From an uncultured bacterium (GTDB lineage Bacteria > Patescibacteriota > Minisyncoccia > Moranbacterales > GWC2-37-73), in contig CAIOVI010000002.1 of NCBI GenBank assembly GCA_903861715.1, positions 1-37,996 on the forward strand: DNA of 37,996 nt, written 5' to 3'. How positions within the stretch are numbered: position 1 is the first letter of the stretch; each line of letters starts with the position of its first letter. Under the pieces are notes generated by a model, which ran no database searches, was not told where the DNA came from, and was given only the letters and a program-made list of their open reading frames with translations. This document shows positions 1,162 through 19,743 of the stretch, piece after piece. The position numbers were made by a program, and so were the translations under genes.

Positions 1162-1266
1162 ATTTTTTTGATTATTTTTTTGGAAAAACTAGTTAAGGTT
1201 TTTATTATTAAGCATAGTGAGTGCTTGCCTTGAAAGGAAGCGTCGCAGGAGGGTTAATACTTTTTT

Positions 1267-1307
1267 ATTATACCATAAAAATAAAGAAGCAAGCAAAGTT
1301 ATCCACA
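1267..1307 (-). promoter_or_regulatory. Promoter with DnaA-box-like site for the FISUMP gene
   Basis: Read on the minus strand there is a -35 TTGCTT (1291-1296), an 18-nt spacer and a -10 TATAAT (1267-1272). Directly upstream, at 1299-1307, is TTATCCACA (TGTGGATAA on the minus strand), a perfect match to the E. coli DnaA-box consensus. The same combination recurs before the histone-like gene near 30.4 kb. The transcript would carry a leader of about 100 nt. Confidence 0.55.
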
Positions 1308-1395
1308 GAAAAATAACCTTCTTGCGAAAAATACAATCATTGAATTTTGCTGAAATTAAACTCCTTTGAGATGGTATTAAATATGCAAGGTCGAA

Positions 1396-1608
1396 ATGAA
1401 AATATTAATTCCCCTTAAGCACAACAAACATATGTACGATCAAGAAGCTGGTGAAGAAATGGAACTTTTTTGTTGCGAAGGAAAATTCAAGAAGGAATTC
1501 AAGTTGGCTCACCTCAAAAAGAAAGAAGGCATTTTGGAAGCTAAATTGGGATTCGTTCGTGAAATAAAGGAACTGGTGGAAAAATCTCACACAGAAACCA
1601 AAGCCTAG
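1396..1608 (+). CDS. Small hypothetical protein, 70 aa
   Basis: I do not recognise this protein. The frame gives a 70-residue, charged, Lys/Glu-rich, probably helical product with a central FCCEGKF segment and a C-terminal KSHTETKA tail. The composition is protein-like, while the opposite-strand frame is the phenylalanine-rich shadow expected of a Lys/Glu-rich gene, so the plus strand is preferred. No strong ribosome binding site precedes the ATG, which is common in this genome. It ends just before a bidirectional hairpin terminator (1621-1651) and is convergent with the frameshifted PRA-PH-like gene. Confidence 0.4.
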   Translation: MKILIPLKHNKHMYDQEAGEEMELFCCEGKFKKEFKLAHLKKKEGILEAKLGFVREIKELVEKSHTETKA

Positions 1609-2034
1609 CAACAAACAACAAAAAATATTCCCTTAAAAAGGAGTATTTTTTGCTGAAAAATTTTTATCATTTTTTCTGTTTCAAAAAACTTTTTGACATT
1701 GGGTTTGAAATAGCCAGTACCCTTAATCATTTTGTAGGGGCTATAGTCTTTGCTCATGTGCGAATTGTGAACTTCCCAAAAAATATCTTCAATTTTGTCT
1801 TGCAAGCCATGCTCCAAAATCGTCCCATAAACGCCATACAAAATATCGCACAACTCTTTGGCGATGTTTTCCAGGTCGCCCTTTTCTGCACCCTTCCAGA
1901 TATTCTCTGACTTCCTCTTCCATTAAAGCATATCTTAAATTATATCTGTCCTTAGGAATCAACCCAGGTGTATTTAAAATTGGGGCCTTGAATTTTTCAT
2001 GAAAAATTTTGACCAACTCGAGTTCTTCTTTCAT
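1605..2034 (-). pseudogene. Frameshifted MazG/PRA-PH-like pyrophosphohydrolase
   Basis: Two overlapping minus-strand frames join into one protein. Frame 1 starts at 2034 and gives 'LVKIFHEKFKAPILNTPGL...RYALMEEEVREYLEG'. Frame 2 continues 'AEKGDLENIAKELCDILYGVYGTILEHGL...EVHNSHMSKDY...KGTGYFKPNV'. This matches the phosphoribosyl-ATP pyrophosphohydrolase-like (all-alpha NTP pyrophosphatase, MazG/HisE superfamily) pattern: FHEKF, EEEVxE, ADILY-like and VHxSxMSK. Members hydrolyse nucleoside triphosphates to monophosphates plus PPi. The frames join if one base is dropped in or beside the CCC run at 1891-1893. A second one-base change in the T6 tract near 1690 would end the protein as KKFLKQKK before the terminator; as it stands the frame runs through the terminator to a stop at 1605. 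The change is either a true frameshift mutation or sequencing/assembly error. I am confident of the family and of the frame break. Confidence 0.75.
1621..1651. terminator. Bidirectional terminator hairpin
   Basis: AAAAATATTCCCTT and AAGGAGTATTTTT form a stem with one wobble and one bulge around a short A loop, with A and T tracts on either side. It fits termination of both the plus-strand small gene ending at 1608 and the minus-strand gene that reaches this point. Confidence 0.55.
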
Positions 2035-2161
2035 ATTACCCTGTTAAATAAGCTCTGAATTTCTCACGGCGAGAAACAGTTTATTTTTCTAATTATTATA
2101 ATTGTGCTAAAAATCATATCTCCCAGGAAACTTATTCTGCCTTTATTATCTAGCGAAGTGA

Positions 2162-2197
2162 GCGAAATGAATTCGCCGGCTGGCGAATTCATTTCGC
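2162..2197. repeat. 36-bp perfect palindrome
   Basis: GCGAAATGAATTCGCC and its exact reverse complement are separated by GGCT, giving a 16-bp stem. There is no T tract, so it is not a typical intrinsic terminator. The core GCC-GGCT-GGC resembles the GCC-AGCT-GGC palindromes at 5476 and 30458. Confidence 0.8.
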
Positions 2198-2342
2198 AGC
2201 AGCCTGTCCGCCTTTGGAGGAAGCGACGATAACAAAAGGTTTTTGCCTACGAGGCTTGTCCACCTCGGCGAGCCTAAGGCGAGACGGGCCTCGTGAGCCT
2301 GAAGGGTCCAGGGCTTGCCCTGGTGTATTAATACCCTTTTAT

Positions 2343-2373
2343 TTTATCACTAAGCTAAATATTGCTCAAATTA
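2343..2373 (-). promoter_or_regulatory. Putative promoter upstream of the PRA-PH-like gene
   Basis: On the minus strand TTGAGC, a 17-nt spacer and TAAAAT are followed by GTATTAATAC. The transcript would have a leader of about 300 nt crossing several hairpins (CCAGGGC/GCCCTGG, an ACGAGGC/GCCTCGT pair and the palindrome at 2162-2197) before the ATG at 2034. There is no gene in 2035-2390. Confidence 0.35.
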
Positions 2374-2390
2374 AAAACATCTCTTTTTCC

Positions 2391-3134
2391 TTATTTAAGC
2401 CCAATAATGGCAACCATAGCTTCAACTGTTGCAGGCTTGTCGCGTCTGAAAGAAAAATAGTTTTCATTTTCGAATATACAAGTGTTGTCACTTGTAATAC
2501 TTTGAATCTCAACTCCAAGCGCAAGCAACTGTTTTCGTAAAATGCTTTTCAAGTCGACAAAAATTTTTCCACCTCTATTGCTAATCGCTTCCGGATGCTT
2601 TGAAAATTCGCCCAGCACATCTTCCTTGATTTCAAAATGGCAAGCGTTGAGTCCTGGGCCAAGTGCGACTTTCAACTTTTCTGGCTGGCCACCCAGGGCC
2701 ACAATTTTGACCAAAGCATTTTCAATCACTCCACTCAGAATTCCCCGCCAACCGCAATGAACAACCGCCACAATTTTTTGCGCTGGCTCCCAAAAATAAA
2801 CCGGGATGCAATCAGCAACCGTAACCGTCAGAAAAACTTTTTTGTCCTTGGTGACCAGTCCGTCGGCGCCAAAAATCAACTCAGGACTTTTTCCATTGAC
2901 AATTTCAACTGCCTTGCCGTGCACAATTTCAGCTGACACAATTTTGCTTCCAATGAGGTTAATTTTTTGAAAAAAGTTTTTTCGATTTTCCAAATTCAAA
3001 TCACTGTTTTGCAACAGTTTCATTGAGCCGTCTCTTCGCTCCGACATAACCGCCAAAATTTCCGGCTGGTCTTTGAAAAATTCAAGCATAAATTTTAACC
3101 CAAAAAATATTCCCCAAAAATCGCTCACATCCAT
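2391..3134 (-). CDS. pgeF: Peptidoglycan editing factor PgeF (YfiH/DUF152, laccase-like)
   Basis: This is a 247-aa protein of the multicopper-polyphenol-oxidase-like/DUF152 family (YfiH, YlmD, human LACC1). Metal and active-site signatures are intact: His72 in AEIVHG, Cys109 in VADCIPV, His126 in HCGWRG, plus LGPGLNACHFEI (158-169) and the C-terminal NTCIFENENYFSFRRDK. In E. coli the protein keeps L-Ser from replacing L-Ala in peptidoglycan precursors; relatives also show purine nucleoside phosphorylase or deaminase activity, so cytosolic nucleoside or cell-wall editing is the likely role. The length is normal. The first Met (3134) lies inside a 24-bp near-palindrome, while Met16 (3089) also fits the family's usual N-terminus, so the start is uncertain. 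It stands alone, with non-coding sequence on both sides. Confidence 0.92.
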   Translation of the reverse strand: MDVSDFWGIFFGLKFMLEFFKDQPEILAVMSERRDGSMKLLQNSDLNLENRKNFFQKINLIGSKIVSAEIVHGKAVEIVNGKSPELIFGADGLVTKDKKVFLTVTVADCIPVYFWEPAQKIVAVVHCGWRGILSGVIENALVKIVALGGQPEKLKVALGPGLNACHFEIKEDVLGEFSKHPEAISNRGGKIFVDLKSILRKQLLALGVEIQSITSDNTCIFENENYFSFRRDKPATVEAMVAIIGLK

Positions 3135-3151
3135 ATATCGATTTATGGATG
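3128..3151. promoter_or_regulatory. Near-perfect 24-bp dyad at the pgeF start
   Basis: CATCCATATATCGATTTATGGATG is its own reverse complement apart from one mismatched pair. It overlaps the first possible pgeF start codon, as an operator or translation-blocking hairpin would. No regulator can be assigned. Confidence 0.35.
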
Positions 3152-3304
3152 TAAAAAATATTAGGTTTTTTAGGCTTTTAAGTTATTTTCATTCTAACAT
3201 CGAATAACTTCTTGCTCAAGCCAAGCCAAGAACTTTTTTTCTTGAAAAGTTTATTTTATTTCCTGAAATTTGACTTGAAATTTTAATTTTGTTACAGTAG
3301 ATTC

Positions 3305-3539
3305 ATGACAATGAAAAACTACAAAAAATCTTCAGCTTGTTGCTGCTGCGCCCTTCTTGGCGGCAGGCTGTTTTTGCATGTTTGATAGCGATTTTTCCAA
3401 AATCAAAATCAAGAAAATGCAAATCGGCTCCGCAGCCGGTTTTTTTGTTGTCCAAAATAGTTCTTTGGGTTTTAGCTCTTTTCAAAAACAATTTAAAATC
3501 GAAAAACCATGTGCAGCTGCAAAGTTATTATCAAATTAG
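3305..3539 (+). pseudogene. Possible frameshifted lipoprotein-like ORF
   Basis: From the ATG at 3305 the frame reads MTMKNYKKSS and then turns Cys-rich and stops. Dropping one A from the A6 run at 3323-3328 instead gives MTMKNYKNLQLVAAAPFLAAGC, which is a convincing lipoprotein signal peptide with a LAAGC lipobox, followed by about 58 residues to the stop at 3537-3539. The mature part matches nothing I recognise, and the opposite strand is also open, so this is tentative. If correct, it is a second homopolymer indel within 2 kb of the one in the PRA-PH-like gene. Confidence 0.25.
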
Positions 3540-3643
3540 AGGAAGGCGTGGTCATCCAAATTGACCCACGAGATTTTCAAGACTTTCAGTCTGAGCCAAA
3601 AAAAGAAACACCGTGCTTAACACTGGAAACATGTGCATCCTAA
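3509..3643 (+). CDS. Small hypothetical protein, 44 aa
   Basis: The frame gives a 44-residue acidic protein starting MCSCKVIIKLEEG and ending in a TPCLTLETCAS tail, with four cysteines, two at each end. It overlaps the end of the preceding doubtful ORF in another frame. It is followed within 10 bp by a 12-bp-stem hairpin (3653-3680). No family is recognised. The beta-strand-like KVIIKLEEGVVIQIDP stretch suggests a folded domain, but the call rests only on composition and context. Confidence 0.3.
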   Translation: MCSCKVIIKLEEGVVIQIDPRDFQDFQSEPKKETPCLTLETCAS

Positions 3644-3652
3644 AAATCCCCT

Positions 3653-3680
3653 GGCAAGTCTATGAACCCATAGACTTGCC
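3653..3680. terminator. Hairpin with 12-bp stem, weak terminator
   Basis: GGCAAGTCTATG and its exact complement flank an AACC loop. Only a short T run is found on the minus-strand side (GGGGATTTTT), so termination is possible but not typical. Confidence 0.35.
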
Positions 3681-3727
3681 AATCCAAACATCAAGTAATT
3701 TTAAATATATTTTTCATTCAAGCGTCG

Positions 3728-3832
3728 ATGAATGAAAAGAAAAAAACCATCGTCGTGGTTTTGCCCGACACCGGCGAACGCTATCTCTCCACTTGGCTTT
3801 TTCAAGAAGCCGAAGGCGAAGTGCAAATCTAA
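3728..3832 (+). pseudogene. cysK: C-terminal remnant of cysteine synthase
   Basis: A 34-codon frame reads MNEKKKTIVVVLPDTGERYLSTWLF and so on to TAA. 'TIVVVLPDTGERYLST.LF' is the characteristic C-terminal end of the PLP-dependent O-acetylserine sulfhydrylase (CysK/CysM) family, which is about 300 aa when complete. Nothing resembling the PLP-binding lysine region or the substrate loop lies upstream, so about 90% of the gene is gone. The remnant still has its own intrinsic terminator just downstream (3848-3879). A deletion during genome reduction is the simplest reading; a short relic peptide is unlikely to be functional. Confidence 0.7.
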
Positions 3833-3847
3833 AAAAATAATTTCAAC

Positions 3848-3879
3848 AAAAAAGCTACCAAGAAAATGGCAGCTTTTTT
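3848..3879 (+). terminator. Intrinsic terminator of the cysK remnant
   Basis: AAAAAAGCTACCA and TGGCAGCTTTTTT form a stem with one mismatch around AAGAAA and end in a T6 run on the plus strand. Confidence 0.7.
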
Positions 3880-3937
3880 ATGTTATTGCTGAGGATTTCC
3901 CCACTCCGGGAATACCTGTTAGGCAAAATTTACGCAT
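3878..3937 (-). pseudogene. N-terminal fragment of a P-loop protein
   Basis: A 19-codon minus-strand frame begins MRKFCLTGIPGVGKSSAIT and stops at the edge of the cysK terminator. GIPGVGKSS is a Walker A (P-loop) motif of the kind that opens small nucleotide kinases and NTPase domains. The rest of the domain is missing. A promoter-like TCGTTG-N16-TATAAT lies just upstream (about 3973-4000), so the front of a real gene seems to have been kept while its body was deleted. The exact family cannot be told from 19 residues. Confidence 0.35.
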
Positions 3938-4057
3938 AGTGAAAAAACTTGCTTATTAATAGTTTCTTTATTAATGCTCACATTATACCACCAATTTTAG
4001 CAACAACGAAAAAGAGGGGGTCATAATAATTTAATGACCTCCCTCCTTCGCCTTTGT

Positions 4058-4405
4058 TTAGGCGGCTTTAGAAAGAACTTTTTTGAAACGCTTCTTTTTT
4101 AGCTTTAACTTTGCATAACAGTCGTCTATGGACAAAAAAGTAGCCCAAGTACGTGGATGCCTGTTAACATTACCCTCTGCAATAAGAGTTATGCAGATGT
4201 GTCCACCAACACTGTTTCCAAGACCGAAAGGTTCGAAAAATCCCTGGACTAAGAAAATTGATGAAATTCTTTGTTCTTTCCAGGTACAAACATTTCCTTC
4301 AAGAAAAACTTCATCAATTGAAATACGCAGCTCAGGAAAATTTCTTTTTATTGCTACAACAAAAGCTTTTTTAGCTTTTGTTGGATCAATGACTATTTTT
4401 CTCAT
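4058..4405 (-). CDS. Hypothetical protein, 115 aa
   Basis: This is a 115-residue protein beginning MRKIVIDPTKAKKAFVVAIKRNFPELRISIDEV, with a central SIFLVQGFFEPFGLGNSVGGHICITL segment and a strongly basic C-terminus (LKLKKKRFKKVLSKAA). No signal peptide or membrane segment is visible and I recognise no family. The opposite-strand frame of similar length has poorer composition, so the minus strand is chosen. It is flanked by non-coding sequence and seems to be a single-gene unit. Confidence 0.5.
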   Translation of the reverse strand: MRKIVIDPTKAKKAFVVAIKRNFPELRISIDEVFLEGNVCTWKEQRISSIFLVQGFFEPFGLGNSVGGHICITLIAEGNVNRHPRTWATFLSIDDCYAKLKLKKKRFKKVLSKAA

Positions 4406-4580
4406 TTTGCAGCTACCATTTTTAGTTATGGAATATTATAGTGGAAAGAACTTAAATAAATTGTATAACGTAATAGCCTAGCACAAAAACCAAGCCGTGT
4501 CAAACCCAAAAATCCAGAAGATGCCTTTTTGAGGGATTTTTAGTCAAAAAACCCCAATATTTGAGGTAACGGTGAACAAT

Positions 4581-4616
4581 AAAAAAACTGGTAGGGCTAT
4601 CTAGGATAGCCCTACC
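4581..4616 (-). terminator. Strong intrinsic terminator
   Basis: A perfect 12-bp stem (GGTAGGGCTATC with GATAGCCCTACC, 3-nt loop) is followed on the minus strand by AGTTTTTTT. It directly follows the hypothetical gene ending at 4643. Confidence 0.8.
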
Positions 4617-4642
4617 GTTAAAAGAATTGCCGTTTTGAAAAG

Positions 4643-4954
4643 TTAGCCACATTTCCTGCTTTTGAACTTGTCCGCGTGGTGCATTATGTAAATAAAAATA
4701 TCACCATCGGTAAACATCGCAGGAACTCCAGGAAGAACTTGATAAAAAATAATTTCATCGCAATCACCACTTTCCTGACATTTGATTGGATGCCTGCTCA
4801 AAGGAAGGCAACGCCCAAGCTCCCCGGAAAAAGGACCCTCCACCTCGCCGGCCTTATCAGGCTCTATTTCAATTGTCTTTCCGAGACCACGCACTTTGTG
4901 CCAAGCAACGGCCTTAATCTTGAAAGAGCAGATGTTATCAATTTTAATCCCCAT
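4643..4954 (-). CDS. Hypothetical protein, 103 aa
   Basis: The gene starts MGIKIDNICSFKIKAVAWHKVRGLGKTIEI behind a purine-rich ribosome site (AAAGGGGG, 9 nt before the ATG) and ends before a strong terminator. The product has a possible cysteine pair (KCQESGDC), an acidic middle and a FTDGDIFIYIMHHADKF stretch, and ends KSRKCG. It looks like a small cytosolic domain, but no family is recognised. Expression signals on both sides make it a credible gene. Confidence 0.55.
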   Translation of the reverse strand: MGIKIDNICSFKIKAVAWHKVRGLGKTIEIEPDKAGEVEGPFSGELGRCLPLSRHPIKCQESGDCDEIIFYQVLPGVPAMFTDGDIFIYIMHHADKFKSRKCG

Positions 4955-5100
4955 GTTTCTATCCCCCTTTTATTTTTCAATTATTCTGAAAAAGGAATCA
5001 TCAGCTTCATAAAAATAGAAATCAAAAAAATCTTTTCAAGCTAGAAGTGCAAAGAACTTCCAGGCAGTTTAAACCAAAAAATCTTCACTGTCAAGCCTGG

Positions 5101-5598
5101 TTACAAATAACTCCCAAAGCGAATGAAATGGCAAGTGTAGCCCTGGGGATTTTTTTGCAAATAATCCTGATGATAATCTTCCGCCAGATGGAATTTTTCC
5201 AAGGGCTCCAGCGTTGTGACCACTGGTTTTTTCCAGCGTCCAGATTTTTCCACAATTTCAATCATTTTTTCCGCTTCACTTTTTTCTGCTTGGTTTGCAT
5301 AAAAGATAGCCGAACGATATGAAGAACCTCGGTCATTCCCTTGTTGATTCAAAGTTGTGGGATCGTGGATTTGAAAGAAAAAATCCAGAATTTTTTGAAG
5401 CGAGGTTTTGTCCTGGTCATATTCAATTTCCACCGCCTCCGCGTGGCCCGCATGATTTTCATAGGTTGGATTTTCTCCGCCAGCTGGCGGATTGCCACCA
5501 GCATAGCCAACTCGAGTGCTCACCACGCCCAACTGCTTTCTGCTAAGTTCTTGCAAACCCCAGAAACAACCGCCCGCTAAAACTATTTTTGTATTCAT
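5101..5598 (-). CDS. msrA: Peptide-methionine (S)-S-oxide reductase MsrA
   Basis: MsrA reduces the S-epimer of methionine sulfoxide in proteins. The 165-aa product begins [14 protein letters not shown], with the catalytic cysteine at position 11 in GCFWG, and keeps [56 protein letters not shown] and AEDYHQDYL. The start at 5598 is chosen because it gives the standard N-terminus and a 4-bp overlap with msrB (ATG inside its stop region); a longer upstream frame runs through msrB out of frame and is not real. After GYAGG the protein carries about five extra residues (NPPAG) encoded by a perfect 16-bp palindrome (5476-5491) also found in a spacer at 30458. Transcribed with msrB. Confidence 0.95.
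5476..5491. repeat. 16-bp palindrome inside msrA
   Basis: TCCGCCAGCTGGCGGA is perfectly self-complementary and lies in frame within msrA, encoding part of N-P-P-A-G-G. An identical copy is found in the intergenic region at 30458-30473. Confidence 0.9.
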
Positions 5599-5957
5599 AC
5601 CTTTTTTCCCGGAACAAACTTCATTGAAATTGAATTCACGCAATGACGAATGTTTTTGGCTGTTAGATTTTCTCCTCCAAAAATATGTCCGAGATGCGCC
5701 CCGCAATTGGCGCAAGTGATTTCTGTACGCTGACCATCACCATCCAGCGTTCTTTTGACCGAGCCTGGGATTTCTTCGTCAAAACTTGGCCAGCCGCAAA
5801 AAGATTCGAATTTATCTTTTGAGTCATAAAGCGATTTTCCGCATTGCTTGCAGACATAAACGCCAGCTTCTTTGTTATTAACATACTCACCCGAAAAAGG
5901 AGCCTCTGTGCCTTTGTCGAGAATGACTCTTTTTTCCGCTGGAGTTAACTTGTTCAT
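5595..5957 (-). CDS. msrB: Peptide-methionine (R)-S-oxide reductase MsrB
   Basis: MsrB reduces the R-epimer of methionine sulfoxide, complementing MsrA. The 120-aa protein has the zinc site as two CxxC pairs (C36/C39 and C82/C85), the [10 protein letters not shown] segment, and the catalytic cysteine at 106 in [13 protein letters not shown]. The length is normal for a single-domain MsrB. It lies directly upstream of msrA with a 4-bp overlap, so the two are translationally coupled. The LCP gene upstream ends 43 bp before its start, leaving little room for a separate promoter. Confidence 0.95.
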
Positions 5958-5999
5958 CTTAATGGTTTTTAATTTTTAGCAGAGATTAACCACCAGCAA

Positions 6000-8090
6000 T
6001 TATATTTTTGGTTTAATGTCGGATTGCCCCTTGGTGTCATTGAAAACATTTTGGAAAAGATTGCGAATTTGATCATAGTTGTCCCCTCGTGGCAACAGGA
6101 TGTAGCCTGTCTCAGGCGTGGGATCTGGAGCATAAAGCAAACCTTCTTTTGAATCTTCCAAAACTCTTTGATAAATTTTTGGATTTTTCATGCCATTATA
6201 CAAATCCAGAAGTCTTCTCATTTCCCAGAGTTGCATGTCAGTCTGAACATTGTCGCCCAAGGTGTCCAAAATGGAATTTACCTTTCCAAATTCATCAAAA
6301 CCAATTTGGACAATCTTCTGTTTCAATTGTTGCAAAACAAGTTGCTGCCTTTTGGCGCGTTCAAAATCACTGGTGAGATATCTGGAACGAACAAAGCAGA
6401 GTGATTGCTGACCCGTGAGGATGTTTTTTCCAGCTGGCAAATGAAAATCTCCACCACATTCCGGATTGCTATTTTTGCAAAGAGGATATTGAGCAACGAC
6501 CCTGCCTCTCTTTTTCTTGATTTGAAACTCTCCCGTTGGAACATTGTAATTGCCTGCATCGCAGACATTAACATCGGCAAATTGCGCACCTTCGTCAAAT
6601 GGCTTGGGAAGATCAACTTCCACTCCGCCCACAATGTCCACCAATTGTTTGAAACCATCAGTGCTCACGATTGCAGTGTAGTCAATTGAAAGTCCCGTGA
6701 TCTGGCCAATCATATTTTCAACATCTGATATTCCTTGTCCAGCTCCTTTCTCCTGCCCATAAACATAAACTGCATTCAATTTGCTTTTGGTTTCCTTTCC
6801 AGGATCAGTGACCCACAAATCGCGCGGAATGGAAACCACGGACAACTTTCCTGCCTTTGGCTTGATGCTGACAACCATAATGCTATCCGTGTTCAAGCCT
6901 CCACCTTGATGATTGGCGCCCAGAATTCCCAGCAGCAAAATGTTGATCCGATCTTCGCTTTCTCCTTTCAGCTGACTCTGATTGGGAAGTCCAGCTTGCA
7001 CAAGGCTGCCCACTGATTCGCCTTTCACTGAAATTTTGTTCAAAGTTTTTTCAACTTTCCAAAAAACAAGTGCCAGCAAAGCAAACAAGATTGCGAAAAT
7101 CACGCCAACCGTTATCCACCACTTCCTGCTTTTATTTCTGAGTTTTTTGACATGATGTTTGGCATGCGCATGAACACGATGTAATTTTATTTTTCTCCCA
7201 AAAGCCAAAAGCACTTCCCAATATTTTTTTGAAGAAAAAAAGTTTCCTATTGCTTTGAAATATCTCCACAGCAAAATTATTGCCACAACAAAGAAAAATA
7301 TCGCCGCCAAAAATGTTTCCTGCACTTTACGATTCGTTTTCAATTTCAGCCAAAAAGTCTGTTGAGCCACAACTTTTTTTTGAACGATTCCCTTGGGAAA
7401 AGAAAGCACTGTGGTTATTCCTTCTCCGGCAACCACGCCTTTGTAGGAATAGTCAGCCTCCATGTCTCTTCTGCCACCAAGCCGATTGATACACTGCACG
7501 GTGGCAACATGTTGGCCGATAAAACATTCTTTGATTATCTTGCTGATCTCAACTTTTTGAGGCAAGGCTATGGTGACTTCTGGATATTTGACATAAATTG
7601 GCCATTTGTCGCCGGTGGCATTCCAAAAAATTTCGTCGCTGACACCGCCAAATTTAACCGCGCCCTCAACCGTATAGCGAATCACATAGGTTTTCGAACC
7701 CGAAAAAGGTTGATCCGCATAGTCAATGGCCAGTGCCAGATAGTTTGCTTTTTTGTCGCCGCTTTGGAAATTGGCTTGTTGGAAAACGTATGGATTGTTG
7801 TCTTGGTCGGTCACTGTGACATTGCTGACACTAATTGCAATTTTCGCACCGCCAAGATCCCGATAATTCAAAGGAATATACCGCGTCCAACCAAGCTTAG
7901 CCTGATTTCCATAGTTATAACTGACAGTTTCCGTCACCGCAATCGTGGCATCACTGCTGACGTTCAAGTCTGCAGCATACGAGTCTACATGGGTGACTCC
8001 CTCGGGCACGATGGTTTCAGCCTTAACCTGAAAAGCAAAAAAAGCCCCAAACAAAAAAACAGTCATGGATAACCGGGATATTTTTTTCAT
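6000..8090 (-). CDS. DUF2207-LCP fusion membrane protein
   Basis: This 696-aa protein joins two families. Residues 1-24 are a signal peptide (ending KAE). Residues about 30-245 are an extracellular DUF2207-type domain (HVDSYAADLNVSSDATIAVTETVSYNYG, RYIPLNYRD, DEIFWNATGDKWP). A membrane segment follows at 259-277, a His/Lys-rich cytosolic loop (286-323), a second membrane segment at 324-344, then an external LytR-CpsA-Psr catalytic domain (about 380-650) with NILLLG, the TDSIMVVSI strand, SIPRDLWV (421-428), KLNAVY, and FVRSRY...ERAKRQQ. LCP enzymes move glycopolymers from undecaprenyl carriers to the cell wall. DUF2207 proteins are predicted membrane proteins of unknown function and normally occur alone. 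Two cysteine-rich short insertions lie in the LCP part. It begins the minus-strand run into msrB-msrA. Confidence 0.85.
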   Translation of the reverse strand: MKKISRLSMTVFLFGAFFAFQVKAETIVPEGVTHVDSYAADLNVSSDATIAVTETVSYNYGNQAKLGWTRYIPLNYRDLGGAKIAISVSNVTVTDQDNNPYVFQQANFQSGDKKANYLALAIDYADQPFSGSKTYVIRYTVEGAVKFGGVSDEIFWNATGDKWPIYVKYPEVTIALPQKVEISKIIKECFIGQHVATVQCINRLGGRRDMEADYSYKGVVAGEGITTVLSFPKGIVQKKVVAQQTFWLKLKTNRKVQETFLAAIFFFVVAIILLWRYFKAIGNFFSSKKYWEVLLAFGRKIKLHRVHAHAKHHVKKLRNKSRKWWITVGVIFAILFALLALVFWKVEKTLNKISVKGESVGSLVQAGLPNQSQLKGESEDRINILLLGILGANHQGGGLNTDSIMVVSIKPKAGKLSVVSIPRDLWVTDPGKETKSKLNAVYVYGQEKGAGQGISDVENMIGQITGLSIDYTAIVSTDGFKQLVDIVGGVEVDLPKPFDEGAQFADVNVCDAGNYNVPTGEFQIKKKRGRVVAQYPLCKNSNPECGGDFHLPAGKNILTGQQSLCFVRSRYLTSDFERAKRQQLVLQQLKQKIVQIGFDEFGKVNSILDTLGDNVQTDMQLWEMRRLLDLYNGMKNPKIYQRVLEDSKEGLLYAPDPTPETGYILLPRGDNYDQIRNLFQNVFNDTKGQSDIKPKI

Positions 8091-12860: not shown

Positions 12861-15101
12861 TTAATTCAAATCTAAAAATTTCCAATCTTTCAAATCATTT
12901 GGATTATACGAATAGTTTTTATTATCATTAAAGCGCCAGCTGTTATTTTCGCTGATAACAATCCCGCCGAAAAGTTTTTTACTATTTTTATTTTCCTTCT
13001 CAATATACTTTGCCAAACCTTCAGCGCGATCTTTCGCTGTTTGTGCGTATATGCCACCTTTTGTATCAAAAAGACCAATCCTGCCATCACTAAACTTAAC
13101 AATAAAATCCACATAGAAAGGTTTTTCAATATCATTTTCTACATAAGGAACAGCGAAGTATGTTGAATCAGCTTTTCCATTTTTAAACCACCATTCAACT
13201 TGTTTTGCACTTTCCAAGAATTGAATAAATGAAACCTCAACATCACTATCTTCTTCAAAAAGCGAAAGATTATTTGCGCCTTTTGTTTTCGCATAATATG
13301 GAGCAATAATAGATCTTTTGTAATCCTTTTTTACAAACGTAAGATTGTATTTGATAATTTTTGGCACATTCCACGACTCATCATTCAAAACTAATTCATT
13401 CTTTCCCTTGCCAACTTCTTCTTGATAAAGTTCTTTAGCTTTATTTATAGCATTAATGAATGCTTGCTGATTTTCTTGGGCCAGAACTATAGCTTGAATT
13501 TTAGTCCAATCATCAACTCCCATTTGAAAAGCTTTATCAAAAAAACGATAGATTGAATCATTAATCCTCTTAATTGATCTTAATTCAGGAGCAAAAGGAG
13601 CAAGATTATCACGCACAAAAAAATCGAAAGCATACTGCAACTCAACATCATTTTTTGGAATATTCAATGTTCCCTTTTTCTTAATATTCTTAACTTCTTT
13701 ATCTACATCCTCAATAATTCCGCTAGCAATAATTTTTGAATCAACTATACTATGCTTCAAACTAACTTTTGATTTTAGATCAAGTTCTTCTGTCGCCTTG
13801 AAAAATGATTTTGTAAAATCTGAAGATAGGCGCGTTTCCTCCCTGAATCTTTTTGTGTGATATGAAGGAAGGTCTAGATTTTTAAATATATCATCACGCC
13901 TCTTTCCTTCATAAATAGTAAAGTACTCTTTCGCAATATCTTCAGCAATTCCAATGTCGGTCAAACTAGTGTAAACATACCCAACATTAAGATCTTGGTC
14001 ATTATAGTGCCTATGTTCCGGCATACGCATAATTCTTCCGACAGTTTGTATTGAAAAAACCATGCTTTTCCATTCTCTAAATAAAACAAGAATCGAAGCA
14101 CGAGGACAGTCCCACCCAACAGCAATTGCCTGTTTAAAAATCATCACTTCAACCTCGTTCTCATTTTTTTCGATATTTTCAAGATTGATTTTATCGTCCT
14201 TATCAGAAAGATAAATGGCTAATTTTCCATTTGCAGTAGTTTTTCCATATTTTGCCAAGAGTTGAATTATCCAATTCTTTTTATCAATTAATCCTTTCCT
14301 AGAATCTGGAATTTGAATAAGCATCAAAGGATTAACTTCAGATCCTTCAACTTCGAATTTTTTGGCAAGCTCTGCCCTCTTTTTTAATCCAGCTTCAATG
14401 ACAATTTCATCCGCAGTTTTATCAGCGACTTTTTTATCCAATTTATAGTTTTCAAAATCAGGATTTATACCAATTTCTTTTTTAACCATTCCCTCATCCT
14501 TAACATCCTTAAGTTCGATTTCTACACCCCGAAACACACCTTTTAATTGAGGTGTTGCGGAAACTTCAATTGTAATTTTGGGTCCTATTTCTTCAATTAA
14601 TTCTCTTGATGCTTCCGTATCAGCATTTCTATGACTTTCATCAATAATCAAAACGACCGTGCGCCCATCCTCATTCGTGCGTTTAACAATACTTGTTAAA
14701 TTATTATCACGCTCATTCGCCCTGACGTAAATATTTTCCTTTCTATTTATACTTGCCCAATTCAAAAAAAGAATCTCGTTTTCCTTTATTTTTCTATCAT
14801 CCAAATCCTCAAAGTATGAACATCGTAAACCAAGACCCTTGCCTTCATAGTATTTTTTTAAACTATTGCGACTTTGATCATGCAATTTATTAACTGCGAT
14901 CCAGATAAAAGAAAATTTTCTCCCATCAATCCTGGAATCAACAAGTCGCATCATAAATTCTGCCATCATCAAAGTTTTTCCTGATCCAGTCGGAGATTTA
15001 AAAACGCAAACCTTTTTATCATCCATATCTAAAAGTTCATCAACTTTTTGTTTGAGTTTTAATATTGCCTTTTCTTGATAATTTTTGAATTCTATCCACA
15101 T
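12861..15101 (-). CDS. res: Type III restriction enzyme, Res subunit
   Basis: Res supplies the ATP-dependent helicase/translocase and DNA cleavage activities of a Type III restriction-modification system. The 746-aa protein has helicase superfamily 2 motifs: Walker A SPTGSGKT (36-43), DESH box (154-157), motif III VSATP (near 180), and motifs V/VI in AVGWDCPRA and QTVGRIMRMPE. The C-terminal nuclease of PD-(D/E)xK type is visible as FYVDFIVKFSDG...LFDTKGG. It is shorter than many Res proteins (often about 900 aa), but all core motifs are present. It starts 1 bp after mod, so the two are coupled. Confidence 0.93.
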   Translation of the reverse strand: MWIEFKNYQEKAILKLKQKVDELLDMDDKKVCVFKSPTGSGKTLMMAEFMMRLVDSRIDGRKFSFIWIAVNKLHDQSRNSLKKYYEGKGLGLRCSYFEDLDDRKIKENEILFLNWASINRKENIYVRANERDNNLTSIVKRTNEDGRTVVLIIDESHRNADTEASRELIEEIGPKITIEVSATPQLKGVFRGVEIELKDVKDEGMVKKEIGINPDFENYKLDKKVADKTADEIVIEAGLKKRAELAKKFEVEGSEVNPLMLIQIPDSRKGLIDKKNWIIQLLAKYGKTTANGKLAIYLSDKDDKINLENIEKNENEVEVMIFKQAIAVGWDCPRASILVLFREWKSMVFSIQTVGRIMRMPEHRHYNDQDLNVGYVYTSLTDIGIAEDIAKEYFTIYEGKRRDDIFKNLDLPSYHTKRFREETRLSSDFTKSFFKATEELDLKSKVSLKHSIVDSKIIASGIIEDVDKEVKNIKKKGTLNIPKNDVELQYAFDFFVRDNLAPFAPELRSIKRINDSIYRFFDKAFQMGVDDWTKIQAIVLAQENQQAFINAINKAKELYQEEVGKGKNELVLNDESWNVPKIIKYNLTFVKKDYKRSIIAPYYAKTKGANNLSLFEEDSDVEVSFIQFLESAKQVEWWFKNGKADSTYFAVPYVENDIEKPFYVDFIVKFSDGRIGLFDTKGGIYAQTAKDRAEGLAKYIEKENKNSKKLFGGIVISENNSWRFNDNKNYSYNPNDLKDWKFLDLN

Positions 15102-15102
15102 A

Positions 15103-16929
15103 TTATTTAAATATTTCTCGATAAACTTTTAATATCACTTCGGGAATCGCACAAAGAGAAACACGTTTTTTAATATCCTTAAATTCTTTTTCGTGTGGAT
15201 CATCACCTAGAGAAAAAACATAGACATTAATATGACCTTCTATTTTTTTAATTGCTTTTTTAAAATCATTAATAGCATCTTCATAAAAAATAATTCCAAC
15301 GTGTTTTTCGTGATTTTTGAAAATTTTGAAATCATCCTCGTCACAAACTAATTCAAAAGCACTTTCCTTAATGCAAAGCATTTCAGTGGATTTGCTAACT
15401 AGTTTTCTTTTATTTTGATCAGTTTCCTTAGCTTCGACAAAATCATATGCTGTAAAATATTTTAGATTACCACCAAGACCTTCAATTTGTTCATTTTTAT
15501 TGTTCTTATACCCCTTTATTACTTTTTGTAATCTTGGTTGACAAACATCAGTTGCGATATTGTTTTCATTGTTTGTACAAAGAATAAATTTTCTATTTCC
15601 ACCGTCTTCTTTATTTAAATTTAAAACTGCATGACCAGTCGTTCCTGATCCAGCAAAAAAATCGAGGATTGTTATAGAATTATCATCTAATAACGTCATC
15701 AAAAGTTTTAGTAATCCAATATTTTTTGGATTACTAAACGGAAGTTTATCTGTTCCAAAAATATCCTTTAACTCAGTGCCAGCCGAAGTGGTTTTGACAT
15801 CTATTTGATAATCCTTTTTTTCATTATCTATTACTGCCTCATACTTTCGATTAACAACCAAACTCTTAAGTCTTATTTTTGTACTAAAATTTTTCTCATA
15901 CAGTTTACCATTCTTAAAATCTAAAGCATTTTCTTCGAAAAGTTCCAATATTTTTGATTTTGTATATGTATTCAAAACAAATTTATCTTCAAAATAAGAA
16001 CAATACCTCTCATACCCTCTATCCAATAAGCTCTTATTTACATCATTGATAGATCTTTCTTTTTCTATTATTATGTCATTTTCAACTTTATCATAATAAA
16101 CAATGTAATGCTTTTCCGAATTAAAATCTTTAACAATTGGATTAAATTTATTTTCTCCAACAAGAACTCTTTTACCACTATTGTGCACATAGGATCCATT
16201 TTCATCAGGTGTTAAATCAGTTGCCTGCTTAGGAATATTTTCAACAAAATAACTTTCATTCTTATCTTTCACATATATTAAGCAATATTCATTGCTAGTA
16301 GATATAAAATTTGAATTTTTTCTACCCTTGGGATTATTTTCAATCGATAGCATAGAAACAAAATTTAATTCCCCAAAAATTTCATCACAAAGCATTTTCA
16401 ATTGCGCTTGTTCATTATCATCAATACTTATGAAGATTACACCGCTTTTTTTTAAAAGATTTTTTGCAAGTTTTAATCTTTTTTCCATAAAAGCAAGCCA
16501 CTTACTATGCCTAAATGGATCATCACTTTTCACAAAATCGCTTTTAACTTTATCATTATAAATAAAATCATTTTTTCCAGTATTGTATGGTGGATCAATA
16601 TAAATAACGTCGATCATTTCCTGATGAGTAAAATTCAAAACAGCAAGCGAATGATAATTATCACCCTCAATCAATAAATTTACTGATCCTTCTTTATCAG
16701 TAATAACCTCATTCTTTTTCACTTCTTTTAAAACTGGAAATGGTTTCCCTGAAACTTCATTTGAAAATAATTCGCTTGGTGTTCTTGCGTCTGGATTAAT
16801 AAGAATATCAATCTTTTCCTCTGGCAAATCTCGATGCCAAACAAGACCATAGGTTGTTTCTTTGATCCGCTTCAATTCTTTGATAAGCTCCTCTTTCGAC
16901 CAGTTGTCGTAATTTATTCTTTTTACCAT
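15103..16929 (-). CDS. mod: Type III restriction-modification DNA methyltransferase, Mod
   Basis: Mod is the sequence-recognising N6-adenine methyltransferase of the Type III system and also guides Res. The 608-aa protein shows the beta-class order: catalytic motif IV DPPYNTG (112-118) near the N-terminus, a long target-recognition region in the middle (about 190-390), and the AdoMet-binding motif I FFAGSGTTGHAV (about 424-435) near the C-terminus. The C-terminal 100 residues (KSTEMLCIKESAFEL and after) match the extension seen in full-length Type III Mods that contacts Res. It is the first gene of the defence operon. Base composition is similar to its neighbours or slightly more AT-rich. Confidence 0.94.
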   Translation of the reverse strand: MVKRINYDNWSKEELIKELKRIKETTYGLVWHRDLPEEKIDILINPDARTPSELFSNEVSGKPFPVLKEVKKNEVITDKEGSVNLLIEGDNYHSLAVLNFTHQEMIDVIYIDPPYNTGKNDFIYNDKVKSDFVKSDDPFRHSKWLAFMEKRLKLAKNLLKKSGVIFISIDDNEQAQLKMLCDEIFGELNFVSMLSIENNPKGRKNSNFISTSNEYCLIYVKDKNESYFVENIPKQATDLTPDENGSYVHNSGKRVLVGENKFNPIVKDFNSEKHYIVYYDKVENDIIIEKERSINDVNKSLLDRGYERYCSYFEDKFVLNTYTKSKILELFEENALDFKNGKLYEKNFSTKIRLKSLVVNRKYEAVIDNEKKDYQIDVKTTSAGTELKDIFGTDKLPFSNPKNIGLLKLLMTLLDDNSITILDFFAGSGTTGHAVLNLNKEDGGNRKFILCTNNENNIATDVCQPRLQKVIKGYKNNKNEQIEGLGGNLKYFTAYDFVEAKETDQNKRKLVSKSTEMLCIKESAFELVCDEDDFKIFKNHEKHVGIIFYEDAINDFKKAIKKIEGHINVYVFSLGDDPHEKEFKDIKKRVSLCAIPEVILKVYREIFK

Positions 16930-17333: not shown

Positions 17334-17377
17334 TAAAAAAAGGGGGGATGAGCAAATTAATACATGCCCTCCCCCAT
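17334..17377 (-). terminator. Terminator of the Cys-rich peptide gene
   Basis: On the minus strand GGGGGA pairs with TCCCCC, and the inner GGGCA with TGCTC (one wobble), followed by CTTTTTTT. It lies 27 bp after the peptide's stop codon and fits a strongly expressed short transcript end. Confidence 0.7.
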
Positions 17378-17403: not shown

Positions 17404-17556
17404 TCAATCACATTTGCAATCGCACTGACAAGCGCATTTGCAAGGGCATTGCCCCTGACAAAAACTCTCGTTTCTCGGCGTGAGACCACTTGGCACAGGA
17501 GCAATTTTATTTGTGCCCCTGTGATAGGTTTTAAGTAACAACATAAGTCGAAACAT
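17404..17556 (-). CDS. Candidate RiPP precursor with alternating cysteines
   Basis: A 50-aa gene lies 56 bp downstream of a radical SAM/SPASM gene. The start at 17556 is set by a strong GGAGG placed 4 nt before the ATG; an upstream in-frame ATG has no such site. The product has an N-terminal hydrophobic/basic leader-like part (MFRLMLLLKTYHRGTNKIAPVPSGLTPRNESF) and a C-terminal core CQGQCPCKCACQCDCKCD. The core has eight cysteines, at 33, 37, 39, 41, 43, 45, 47 and 49, so from 37 on every second residue is Cys. SPASM maturases commonly make thioether links from Cys in such peptides (sactipeptides, ranthipeptides). A metallothionein-like metal binder is the main alternative. No transporter or leader peptidase is nearby. 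The gene's own terminator follows. Confidence 0.7.
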   Translation of the reverse strand: MFRLMLLLKTYHRGTNKIAPVPSGLTPRNESFCQGQCPCKCACQCDCKCD

Positions 17557-17612
17557 AATTCCTCCATGCTTAAAGTTAACAATACTCAATTTTCTAAAAC
17601 TTTATTTGAATT

Positions 17613-18644
17613 TTATTTCACCTCCTTTTTGATAAATTTATTAGGATCAAAATACAACCACTCCAGAAAACATCCTCCACCACAATAATCCCAATCCTTA
17701 CATCCTTCACAGATTTCCGATGGAAAACGCCGGGTCAGGTTTCTAAACTCCTCCATTTCCTTTCCATGCCAAAAATTCATGAATGTTTCGACGTCAGAGA
17801 AATCAACTCCAAATTTCCCCAAAGGATGAGCAGGAAAATGATTGCAGGGCAATATCTCTCCCACTTGATCAAAAATCAATCCCTCTCCACCTTGAATATG
17901 ACAACAAGTCATAATGGCTTGTGAATCCTTCATCTCATTTCGAATATCATCTGGCAATAGGCAAAGTGGAATAGAAATCCGCATATTAAATCTATTGTTT
18001 TTTTCTTTAAGAAAACGATAGATGTTAACACAGGAATCCGCAAGTTCTTTGGGATCTGGGATACCTTCACCAGAAATAATATCACCAACTACAACGGGAC
18101 TGCCCATATCAAAAGTAACTGCTGTAATATCTTCCTCTAAGAGATTATTAAGCAACCTTTCAACATGAGGAATTAATTTTGATACTAATGTAATGGAAAG
18201 GCTTGGTTCTACACCAAGTGATTTAATTATCTTGTATCCAGAAATAACATCATTATAGCAATCAACACCAGTAAGCTCCATGTACTGAAGAGAATCAGCG
18301 GCTTTTACTGAGATACTAATTTTTTTCAGTCCTGCCTCGATAAGTGCTTCAGAGAATGATGCGTCAGCAAGTTTTTTTCCATTTGTTACTAAATTTGGTG
18401 CAATACCAGCCTCTAATAAGCCTTTTATTACTGGCAAAAGATGAGGGTAAATTGTGGGCTCTCCGCCAATTAAAATAGTTTGTTTAACACCAAGCTTTTC
18501 TAGAAAGCCAATTAACTGATTCGCTAAGCCCAAAGACATGTCTTGAGGCTTATAATTAGTATCCTTTGCATAACACCATCCACAACGTAAATTACATTTC
18601 CTATTCACAGTCAGCCATGATCCCATCGAACATGTCTTTTTCAT
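17613..18644 (-). CDS. Radical SAM/SPASM peptide maturase
   Basis: This is a 343-aa radical SAM enzyme. The [4Fe-4S] cluster that cleaves AdoMet is bound by CNLRCGWC (C17, C21, C24), and the AdoMet-site GGEP lies in ILIGGEPTIYP. The C-terminal SPASM domain has the canonical spacing for auxiliary clusters: C-x13-G-x4-C (from TCCHIQGG to EILPC) and C-x2-C-x5-C-x3-C (ICEGCKDWDYCGGGC). The last SPASM cysteine found in some members is not seen after residue 335. SPASM proteins mostly modify ribosomal peptides. A ribosome site (GGAGATAAGG) precedes the start, and a Cys-rich 50-aa gene follows, the classic maturase-precursor pairing. An alternative role as an anaerobic sulfatase-type maturase is less likely because no sulfatase is nearby. 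Confidence 0.9.
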   Translation of the reverse strand: MKKTCSMGSWLTVNRKCNLRCGWCYAKDTNYKPQDMSLGLANQLIGFLEKLGVKQTILIGGEPTIYPHLLPVIKGLLEAGIAPNLVTNGKKLADASFSEALIEAGLKKISISVKAADSLQYMELTGVDCYNDVISGYKIIKSLGVEPSLSITLVSKLIPHVERLLNNLLEEDITAVTFDMGSPVVVGDIISGEGIPDPKELADSCVNIYRFLKEKNNRFNMRISIPLCLLPDDIRNEMKDSQAIMTCCHIQGGEGLIFDQVGEILPCNHFPAHPLGKFGVDFSDVETFMNFWHGKEMEEFRNLTRRFPSEICEGCKDWDYCGGGCFLEWLYFDPNKFIKKEVK

Positions 18645-18803
18645 TTCCTTATCTCCTATTTTGAAAAGTTATTCAAGGTGGCAATATTCAACATTCCAGA
18701 CAAATAATAAATAAAATTATAAAAGAGCACTATGTCAAAATATACTATCTATAAAAAAACTATCATGTACAAAATTATAAGTCAAATATGTTTTGATATA
18801 AAT

Positions 18804-19340
18804 TTAATTCATTAAAACAGCTAACTTTCTAACTGTATTAACATTTCTCGCTGTCATATTTTTATACAGTTCGGAAAGCGTAAACTTACTCATTCCACTT
18901 TTACCCCAATCCTTAACATATATATTCCAAACTATAGCACCATTGATATATAACACATTATCAACACCGACAACCTGCTTTATTAAACTAAGTGATTTTT
19001 TATTATCAAAATCATCCCACAAGAAAAGAACATCCGTTTTTTGCACACCATCATTCTGCCAATCACTTGGAATTTTTTTTGCTAACTTACCTATATTACT
19101 ACTATTTCTAATTAATACTTTAATATCAAAATTAAAATTTTCTCTTAATACTTTTTTAATTACTAAAATTAGCGTTTCAACATCTTTTTCATTACTTTCA
19201 AAAATAACATTACCACTATTTATATAAGTTAAAACATTATGAAAACCAGCATTCTCAAACACTGATTTTAACTTAATCATTTCCACTTTATTTTTTCCAC
19301 CCACATTAATTCCTCGGAGTAGTGCTATATATTTAATCAT
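18804..19340 (-). CDS. DUF1697 family protein
   Basis: This 178-aa cytosolic protein opens with IKYIALLRGINVGGKNKVEM and continues LTYINSGNVIFES, DVLFLWDDFD and SKFTLSELYKNMTARNVNTVRKL, the full-length pattern of DUF1697. The family is widespread and its function is unknown. The gene is unusually AT-rich compared with the ribosomal genes next door, like the maturase downstream, which suggests both were acquired. A 159-bp spacer with TTGACA/TATAAT-like elements separates it from the radical SAM gene, so they may be independent. Confidence 0.88.
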   Translation of the reverse strand: MIKYIALLRGINVGGKNKVEMIKLKSVFENAGFHNVLTYINSGNVIFESNEKDVETLILVIKKVLRENFNFDIKVLIRNSSNIGKLAKKIPSDWQNDGVQKTDVLFLWDDFDNKKSLSLIKQVVGVDNVLYINGAIVWNIYVKDWGKSGMSKFTLSELYKNMTARNVNTVRKLAVLMN

Positions 19341-19426: not shown

Positions 19427-19431
19427 CTATG

Positions 19432-19502
19432 CACGGGTGGAGAGAATCGAACTCCCGCCAACGGTTTTGGAGACCGACGTACTACCACTATACGACACCC
19501 GC
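19432..19502 (-). tRNA. tRNA-Trp (CCA anticodon)
   Basis: The cloverleaf closes. The acceptor GCGGGTG pairs with CACCCGT (one G-T at the end), the anticodon loop is CTCCAAA, and the T arm is GGGAG-TTCGATT-CTCTC. The discriminator is G and no 3' CCA is encoded, so a CCA-adding enzyme is needed. Confidence 0.92.
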
Positions 19503-19554: not shown

Positions 19555-19580
19555 AACCCGTCAGTCGTGACTGACGGGTT
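19555..19580 (-). terminator. Hairpin overlapping the rpmG stop
   Basis: AACCCGTCAGT and ACTGACGGGTT form a perfect 11-bp stem whose right arm includes the first two bases of the rpmG stop triplet. On the minus strand it is followed by ACACCTGTTTTT. It could attenuate read-through into tRNA-Trp. Confidence 0.5.
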
Positions 19581-19743
19581 ATTTCATTTCCTTATGATTT
19601 GTGTGCTTGCGGCAGAATTTGCAATACTTGCTAAGTTCAAGTTTTTCCTTGATTATTTTCTTGTTACGTGAAGTGTAATAAGTGATGTTCTTGCATTCAC
19701 TGCATTTCAGTTTCACCAAATTCTCCTTTGTCTTTGTCGCCAT
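19579..19743 (-). CDS. rpmG: 50S ribosomal protein L33
   Basis: A 54-aa gene encodes MATKTKENLVKLKCSECKNITYYTSRNKKI and so on, to KYCKFCRKHTNHKEMK. The two CxxC pairs (C14/C17 and C41/C44) and TYYTSRNKK identify the zinc-binding (C+) form of bacterial L33, a small protein of the large ribosomal subunit. It sits between tRNA-Thr(GGT) and tRNA-Trp, the usual place of rpmG in bacteria, where it is followed by tRNA-Trp and secE/nusG. Here secE and nusG do not follow, because the DUF1697/radical SAM genes lie there instead. Confidence 0.95.
   Translation of the reverse strand: MATKTKENLVKLKCSECKNITYYTSRNKKIIKEKLELSKYCKFCRKHTNHKEMK

Follow-up and report, generated by a model that had tools for sequence, protein, structure and literature searches.

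A radical SAM/SPASM enzyme paired with alternating-cysteine peptides in Patescibacteria: a candidate modified-peptide pathway

A maturase gene followed by a short cysteine-rich gene

The window analyzed here, a stretch of 37 996 nucleotides on contig CAIOVI010000002.1 of an uncultured patescibacterium, encodes on its minus strand a radical SAM (rSAM)/SPASM maturase of 343 amino acids (17613..18644), which is recognized by its open reading frame, its motifs and its matches, above the cut-off in either case, to the Pfam families Radical_SAM (66 bits) and SPASM (22.7 bits), and is preceded by an AGGAG ribosome-binding site (18653..18657, minus strand). Downstream of the maturase gene, after a gap of 56 bp, lies a gene for a peptide of 50 amino acids that ends with a TGA stop (17404..17556, minus strand; MFRLMLLLKTYHRGTNKIAPVPSGLTPRNESFCQGQCPCKCACQCDCKCD). 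This short gene has a GGAGGA ribosome-binding site just before its ATG (17560..17565, minus strand) and, on the 3' side, a terminator-type hairpin of 11 bp (17343-17375) followed by seven T residues (17336..17375, minus strand; z -2.4), as stated in the original prediction, which had been made from the DNA sequence. Also as stated there, eight cysteines fall within the last 18 residues of the peptide, and seven of these alternate. The peptide can be divided into a leader (residues 1-32; 17461..17556, minus strand), delineated by alignment and a leave-one-out test (see below), with a shared motif ending in KIAPVPSGL, and a core (residues 33-50; 17407..17460, minus strand; CQGQCPCKCACQCDCKCD), the likely boundary being placed between residues 32 and 33 by the first core cysteine. 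The core is the sole (CxC)n run of such length in the genome: the window has no second stretch of six alternating cysteine codons, 100 shuffles produced none, and there is no other case of five such codons in the 1.28-Mb genome.

The frame of the peptide gene is intact in the closest relative, the L006 locus of Falkowbacteria, and the comparison of the two copies yields pS of 0.77, with synonymous sites saturated, and pN of 0.26; for the core alone, pN is 0.11 and pS is 0.82. Because the protein is conserved despite the saturation of synonymous sites, this is a translated coding gene under purifying selection. The expectation that the peptide gene would be AT-rich does not hold: its GC content is 44%, compared with 42% in the right flank and 37% in the maturase gene.

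The maturase contains the rSAM motif CxxxCxxC (CNLRCGWC, residues 17-24), the first SPASM part CHIQGGEGLIFDQVGEILPC, of the form Cx13Gx4C, and the second SPASM part CEGCKDWDYCGGGC, of the form Cx2Cx5Cx3C, with the SPASM cysteines at positions 248, 267, 312, 315, 321 and 325, and an additional, linker cysteine at position 228. Both SPASM parts are present in 18 of the 19 full-length members of the family described below, the deviation being in the first SPASM part of L008. The canonical SPASM arrangement, CX9-15GX4C-gap-CX2CX5CX3C-gap-C (PMC6231123), ends with one more cysteine, and it is this cysteine that is absent in 16 of the 19 members, including the window copy, where no cysteine follows residue 325; the remaining three members have one later cysteine each, at non-equivalent places. 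Hence the SPASM domain, originally described as canonical in spacing, does have these motif spacings but is a variant in which the seventh, final cysteine ligand of AuxII is missing. Because most members have no cysteine beyond CX2CX5CX3C, AuxII is predicted to have three cysteine ligands in this family; in CteB, SuiB and anSME, AuxII is fully ligated, as it is in PqqE, with an aspartate in its cluster set (PMC6231123). In SuiB, the first AuxI cysteine comes from the linker (PMC6231123), and by analogy, the conserved C228 may serve AuxI in the window maturase. The residue after the second SPASM cysteine is an invariant asparagine (C267-N268).

The rSAM domain begins at residue 8-13, as judged from Pfam and from the AlphaFold model (pLDDT 88), and therefore the window maturase has no N-terminal RRE, unlike the rSAM RiPP synthases of known structure, SuiB, CteB and SkfB, which carry one (PMC6231123, PMC8326336). 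No RRE or PqqD protein was found either among the ORFs inspected within 1-1.5 kb of the members of the family. The fold and profile matches of the maturase are SPASM enzymes that act on peptides, namely, SuiB, CteB, SkfB, PqqE and anSME. By sequence, SuiB and PqqE are the nearest RiPP enzymes of known structure (5v1q, E 1e-21 in a profile search), and anSME is among the closest folds to the model (TM 0.71). The search of NCBIfam yielded no equivalog: PapB, the best thioether-peptide model, reached 52.6 bits where its cut-off is 340, none of the sactisynthase models came near its cut-off (StsB, 51 bits against 625), and the SCIFF model was outside the best 25. Assignment to a known family by way of NCBIfam and Pfam thus gave no equivalog, and none of the PDB families fits either.

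Homologous loci, their peptides and a linked HExxH protein

Altogether, 19 full-length maturase loci were collected, 14 of the Patescibacteria type, 4 from Bacillota and 1 on a viral contig. The scan of GTDB contigs yielded L006, L007 from Taylorbacteria (39% identity to the window copy) and, at 31-35% identity, L008-L011 from Bacillota; scans of relatives, with thresholds from 1e-30 to 1e-45, added twelve genomes with a match, one of which (L097) is a mere fragment at a contig end; and the IMG/VR scan produced the viral contig L121 and the truncated L122. Most of the homologs are 28-40% identical to the window maturase, the closest one, from L006, reaching about 64-65%.

In 18 of the 19 loci, across the Patescibacteria-type, Bacillota and viral sets, the maturase gene adjoins a short, cysteine-rich gene, mostly with C-x-C cores, so that the original prediction withstands the refuting conditions set for it, homologous maturases without such a neighbor and, given the intact frame in L006, a peptide gene broken in close relatives. 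The C-terminal sequences of the peptides include ...CQGQCPCKCVCQCDCVCK in L006, ...ECPCKCSECQCNCRCNCKDD in L092, ...CSFCECKCDCTYCPCSVCKI in L093, ...YCDCNGFCQCDCDCTYCPCSQNC in L100, ...CDCQCTNCEGGWGACECNCDCADD in L101 and, among Bacillota, ...RCDCWVCDCDCNCESNCACDCDCHCTYCDCDSD in L011; in several cores, CPC is found beside C-x-C. Only L010 departs from this pattern: there, the maturase gene is followed by one for a SPASM protein whose N-terminus resembles a leader, and then by a (CD)n ORF. In this Bacillota locus (L010, 6019-7580), the first residues of the SPASM protein resemble the leader of the L009 precursor (KTKIQPDKKLIGLGK), and the ORF behind it contains about nineteen cysteines in CD repeats and an ITNSSE leader. 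Because the cores of L005 (SCSTAANGCFGGGGGGLCGR) and L096 (MICGDCEE) are cysteine-poor, with two to three cysteines and no CxC, the C-x-C pattern is common but not universal. The glycine-rich L005 core (1332-1481, minus strand, in genome G053; CSTAANGCFGGGGGGLCGR) accompanies a maturase that belongs to the family, which suggests that the enzyme may not need C-x-C. The viral contig L121 (IMG/VR, 44 kb, high GC) carries, at 2941-4256, a maturase and a C-x-C precursor with the leader TTGIPQEPLIGVRP..., and lacks the HExxH gene discussed below.

The cores retain the cysteines but few other residues, whereas the leaders share the pattern LL..L..tG..P..p.G[LIVF], that is, an N-terminal helix of the LL/FI type, then T/G, then P-x-G-[LIVF]. 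The peptides were chosen by their cysteine-rich cores, independently of the leader sequence itself; of the 16 loci ranked with a leader profile from which the respective locus was left out, 10 had the true peptide first among their 24-52 ORFs and another 3 had it second, the leaders of L096, L103 and L104 not ranking high. Short ORFs with five or more cysteines in 20 amino acids and two or more CxC were present within 1.5 kb of the maturase in 11 of 18 family loci and in none of 67 other rSAM loci; the cysteine threshold was set post hoc, so that these counts give a direction rather than an exact probability. This control strongly disfavors chance pairing of the maturase with a cysteine-rich ORF. 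What characterizes a RiPP system is a short precursor, conserved in its leader and variable in its core, whose gene adjoins that of a modifying enzyme, and this combination is observed in 18 of the 19 loci; together with the homology of the leaders and the selection on the peptide, it supports the proposal of a SPASM maturase with a dedicated cysteine-rich precursor.

Neither a linked peptidase nor a transporter is found in the window, as originally noted, but the suggestion drawn from this, that the product may act inside the cell, does not hold in view of the relatives, which usually do have a candidate peptidase. A gene for a small, metallopeptidase-like HExxH protein is located at most 1.5 kb away in 11 of the 14 Patescibacteria-type loci, compared with 4 of 58 control loci, and in one of the three loci without it (L007), the contig ends there. 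The HExxH proteins align, with H121, E122 and H125 invariant (alignment A4), and the structure model is of high confidence (pLDDT 92.8). The Pfam search with this protein produced no family above the cut-off, and the PDB fold search gave nothing significant (E 0.07 or worse). The top, non-significant structural neighbors are minimal HExxH metallopeptidases (selecase, Wss1, SprT-like proteins and PprI), from which the linked protein differs in its RiPP-like genomic company and in the lack of a Pfam family. Across 384 genomes of the class, the HExxH family is present in 7 of the 8 that carry the maturase, the window's genome being the one without it, compared with 20 of the 376 others; the profile search of the window organism's own genome detected no member at that sensitivity.

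At five other loci, the HExxH gene adjoins a different rSAM/SPASM enzyme. In this second, conserved cassette (L199, L200, L201, L202 and L205, all of the Patescibacteria type), the enzyme is accompanied by a small middle protein and a member of the same HExxH family. In L200 and L201, a protein recognized by Pfam as PqqD/RRE sits between the rSAM and HExxH genes, the corresponding middle frames of L199 and L202 resemble these two, and the L205 enzyme shows a weak C-terminal PqqD match, below the cut-off. The second cassette looks like a peptide pathway of the PqqE/PqqD type without a recognized precursor. The linkage of one HExxH family to two different rSAM contexts supports a role of this protein in peptide maturation, most simply, in the removal of leaders. 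In L093 (1-462, minus strand, in genome G314), a second rSAM enzyme begins just past the HExxH gene and the cysteine-rich system and is truncated where the locus ends.

Genomic setting and transfer

The original prediction placed the two genes next to ribosomal genes; there is, in fact, one rpmG-like ORF (19579-19743), along with four tRNAs. Synteny with congeneric genomes ends at tRNA-Trp (19431..19502, minus strand), with the peptide system on the variable side: the congeners share the rpmG/tRNA side but not the side that carries the peptide system, a DUF1697 protein and a type III restriction-modification (R-M) pair. The DUF1697 gene (18804-19340, minus strand; 27% GC) lies between tRNA-Trp and the maturase gene, and the type III-like pair, consisting of an N6_N4_Mtase and a ResIII/helicase protein (12861-16929, minus strand; 31% GC), adjoins the peptide system within this variable region. 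The maturase itself is patchily distributed, being present in 2 of the 131 genomes of the order and in none of the 5 congeners.

In the phylogenetic tree, the window and L006 maturases are sisters (100/99). The Bacillota maturases do not form a single outgroup, L008 being near the base and L009-L011 within the Patescibacteria-type set, and the maturase of the viral contig is also lodged within that set. The tree, the patchy presence and the location where synteny with the congeners ends jointly point to horizontal transfer of the system, in line with the original hint. The search of plasmid and phage records gave no match at E 1e-15. An att-like repeat of the tRNA-Trp end was ruled out as an island border, the sole match being the tRNA itself, and an exact empty site could not be defined, given that the other side of the congeners and the left genes of the window map to different contigs, with no clean junction.

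A probable RiPP pathway and its alternatives

The most plausible reading of the pairing of the two genes, the homology of the leaders, the selection on the peptide and the peptidase linkage in relatives, to which we would give a probability of about 0.75, is a RiPP system: the core cysteines would be modified by the maturase, most likely into thioethers, and the leader would then be removed. Under this scheme, which treats the peptide as the probable substrate of the adjacent enzyme, the 50-residue precursor would comprise the conserved N-terminal leader (an amphipathic start, then P-x-G-[LIVF]) and the C-terminal C-x-C core, and the rSAM/SPASM enzyme would bind the leader despite having no RRE domain of its own, generate the 5'-deoxyadenosyl radical, abstract hydrogen and modify core residues, most likely by joining cysteine sulfurs to carbons of neighboring residues, with the formation of thioether rings. 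In most relatives, the leader would probably be cut off by the co-encoded HExxH zinc peptidase; because no HExxH member is detected in the window genome, another protease may act there, the leader may be retained or the copy may be incomplete. The product would be a small, sulfur-rich, probably cross-linked peptide. Where a cysteine-dense core is found beside a SPASM enzyme, bonding of cysteine sulfur to carbon is the simplest chemistry to propose. Freyrasin-type Cys-Asp bridges at all eight cysteines were ruled out because there are too few aspartates, two in the window core and one in that of L006.

The family differs from the characterized thioether maturases in having no RRE, no terminal SPASM cysteine and C-x-C cores. 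The ranthipeptide systems (SCIFF/CteB, thermocellin; PapB, freyrasin) resemble it in combining a SPASM-type rSAM enzyme with a short, cysteine-rich precursor that consists of a leader and a core, but CteB has an RRE at its N-terminus and its AuxII is fully ligated, and freyrasin formation by PapB needs aspartate acceptors. The sactipeptide systems (AlbA, SkfB, RumMC) likewise join an rSAM peptide maturase, with SkfB among the profile matches, to a cysteine-rich precursor, but differ in the presence of the RRE and in the density and alternation of the cysteines, and their family models do not match. SuiB, the streptide enzyme, draws on a linker cysteine for AuxI, as the window maturase may do, but both SuiB and PqqE form C-C bonds, the former with a fused RRE and the latter with PqqD.

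It is possible, if doubtful, that the system represents a divergent member of an existing class, ranthipeptides or sactipeptides, with a new type of core. The cysteine-rich precursor beside a SPASM rSAM enzyme and the presence of PapB among the matched NCBIfam models are compatible with such an assignment, but the PapB score is far short of the cut-off, no sactipeptide or ranthipeptide model comes near its own, and the lack of the RRE and of the final SPASM cysteine as well as the different leader set the family apart. Of similarly tentative standing is the boldest extension of the preferred reading, under which a SPASM enzyme without an RRE and with a three-cysteine AuxII would make a ladder of C-x-C thioether rings, or else a mixed thioether/thiol metal cage, and so define a new RiPP class, the product being released by an undescribed HExxH family that a second pathway, of the rSAM/PqqD type, has in common with it, and the whole having moved among host-dependent CPR bacteria, Bacillota of the gut and a virus.

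The peptide might instead be a metal-handling one, given that metallothioneins typically contain C-x-C arrays; its tail would be akin to a metallophore or a small metallothionein, and a few modifications made by the maturase would tune metal binding or stability. The retention of cysteines, but few other residues, in the cores is consistent with this possibility, and a precedent exists in the MNIO-modified bufferins, cysteine-rich RiPPs that can chelate copper (PMC12452194). Metal handling appears unlikely, however, because neither a regulator nor a transporter of metals was noticed in the neighborhood of the loci, a secreted or released RiPP would account just as well for the conserved leader and the leader-peptidase-like gene, and thiols tied up in thioethers would not be free for metal.

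Less probable still is cysteine chemistry without cross-links, such as the formation of heterocycles or an anSME-like oxidation that yields formylglycine or thioaldehyde. The similarity to anSME is genuine inasmuch as the latter, among the closest folds, is a SPASM-type enzyme without an RRE that acts on cysteine or serine, and the occurrence of CPC beside C-x-C could be read in the same vein. In anSME, the residue after the second SPASM cysteine is an aspartate, the catalytic base, but the family under study has the invariant asparagine in this place, and the CxPxR sulfatase motif is missing; furthermore, anSME modifies sulfatases, involves no leader peptide and has a fully ligated seven-cysteine SPASM domain. 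Finally, that the two genes are chance neighbors, with the maturase acting elsewhere and the cysteine-rich ORF unrelated or untranslated, as could be imagined from the unrelated R-M and DUF1697 proteins at the window locus, is hardly credible, given that the pairing recurs in different phyla, at 18 of the 19 loci, and that the peptide evolves under purifying selection.

Returning to the thioether-forming RiPP pathway that we favor, its constituents are familiar in part: graspetide RiPP clusters are known from CPR bacteria (PMC8939145), that is, from the same kind of host, but these rely on ATP-grasp chemistry, with a different enzyme and precursor, and cysteine-rich rSAM RiPPs are known as sactipeptides and ranthipeptides. 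Neither C-x-C rSAM RiPPs nor CPR rSAM RiPPs had a match in the open-access literature searched. The combination was not encountered in that literature or in the curated family libraries, and judging from the sequences, this is very probably a previously undescribed modified-peptide pathway; should its linkage turn out to be new, it may constitute a new class. CPR bacteria, for which the list of described RiPP systems is short, live attached to other bacteria or depend on them, so that a dedicated modified peptide in such an organism would be a candidate agent of host interaction or competition. The dense alternating cysteines, the absence of the RRE and the incomplete set of SPASM cysteines predict unusual leader recognition and cluster ligation, for which the 18 enzyme-precursor pairs provide a ready test set, and the linked HExxH family is a handle for finding further CPR peptide pathways.

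The window's genome also encodes a second, different rSAM peptide system (L117; contig C60 of genome G000, 224-7710). There, a His-Xaa-Ser peptide resembling HxsA3 (GYHVSHGSHGSHGSHGSHSSGGWC) is followed by five rSAM genes, two of them PapB/HxsB-like and three HxsC-like, all scoring below the NCBIfam cut-offs.
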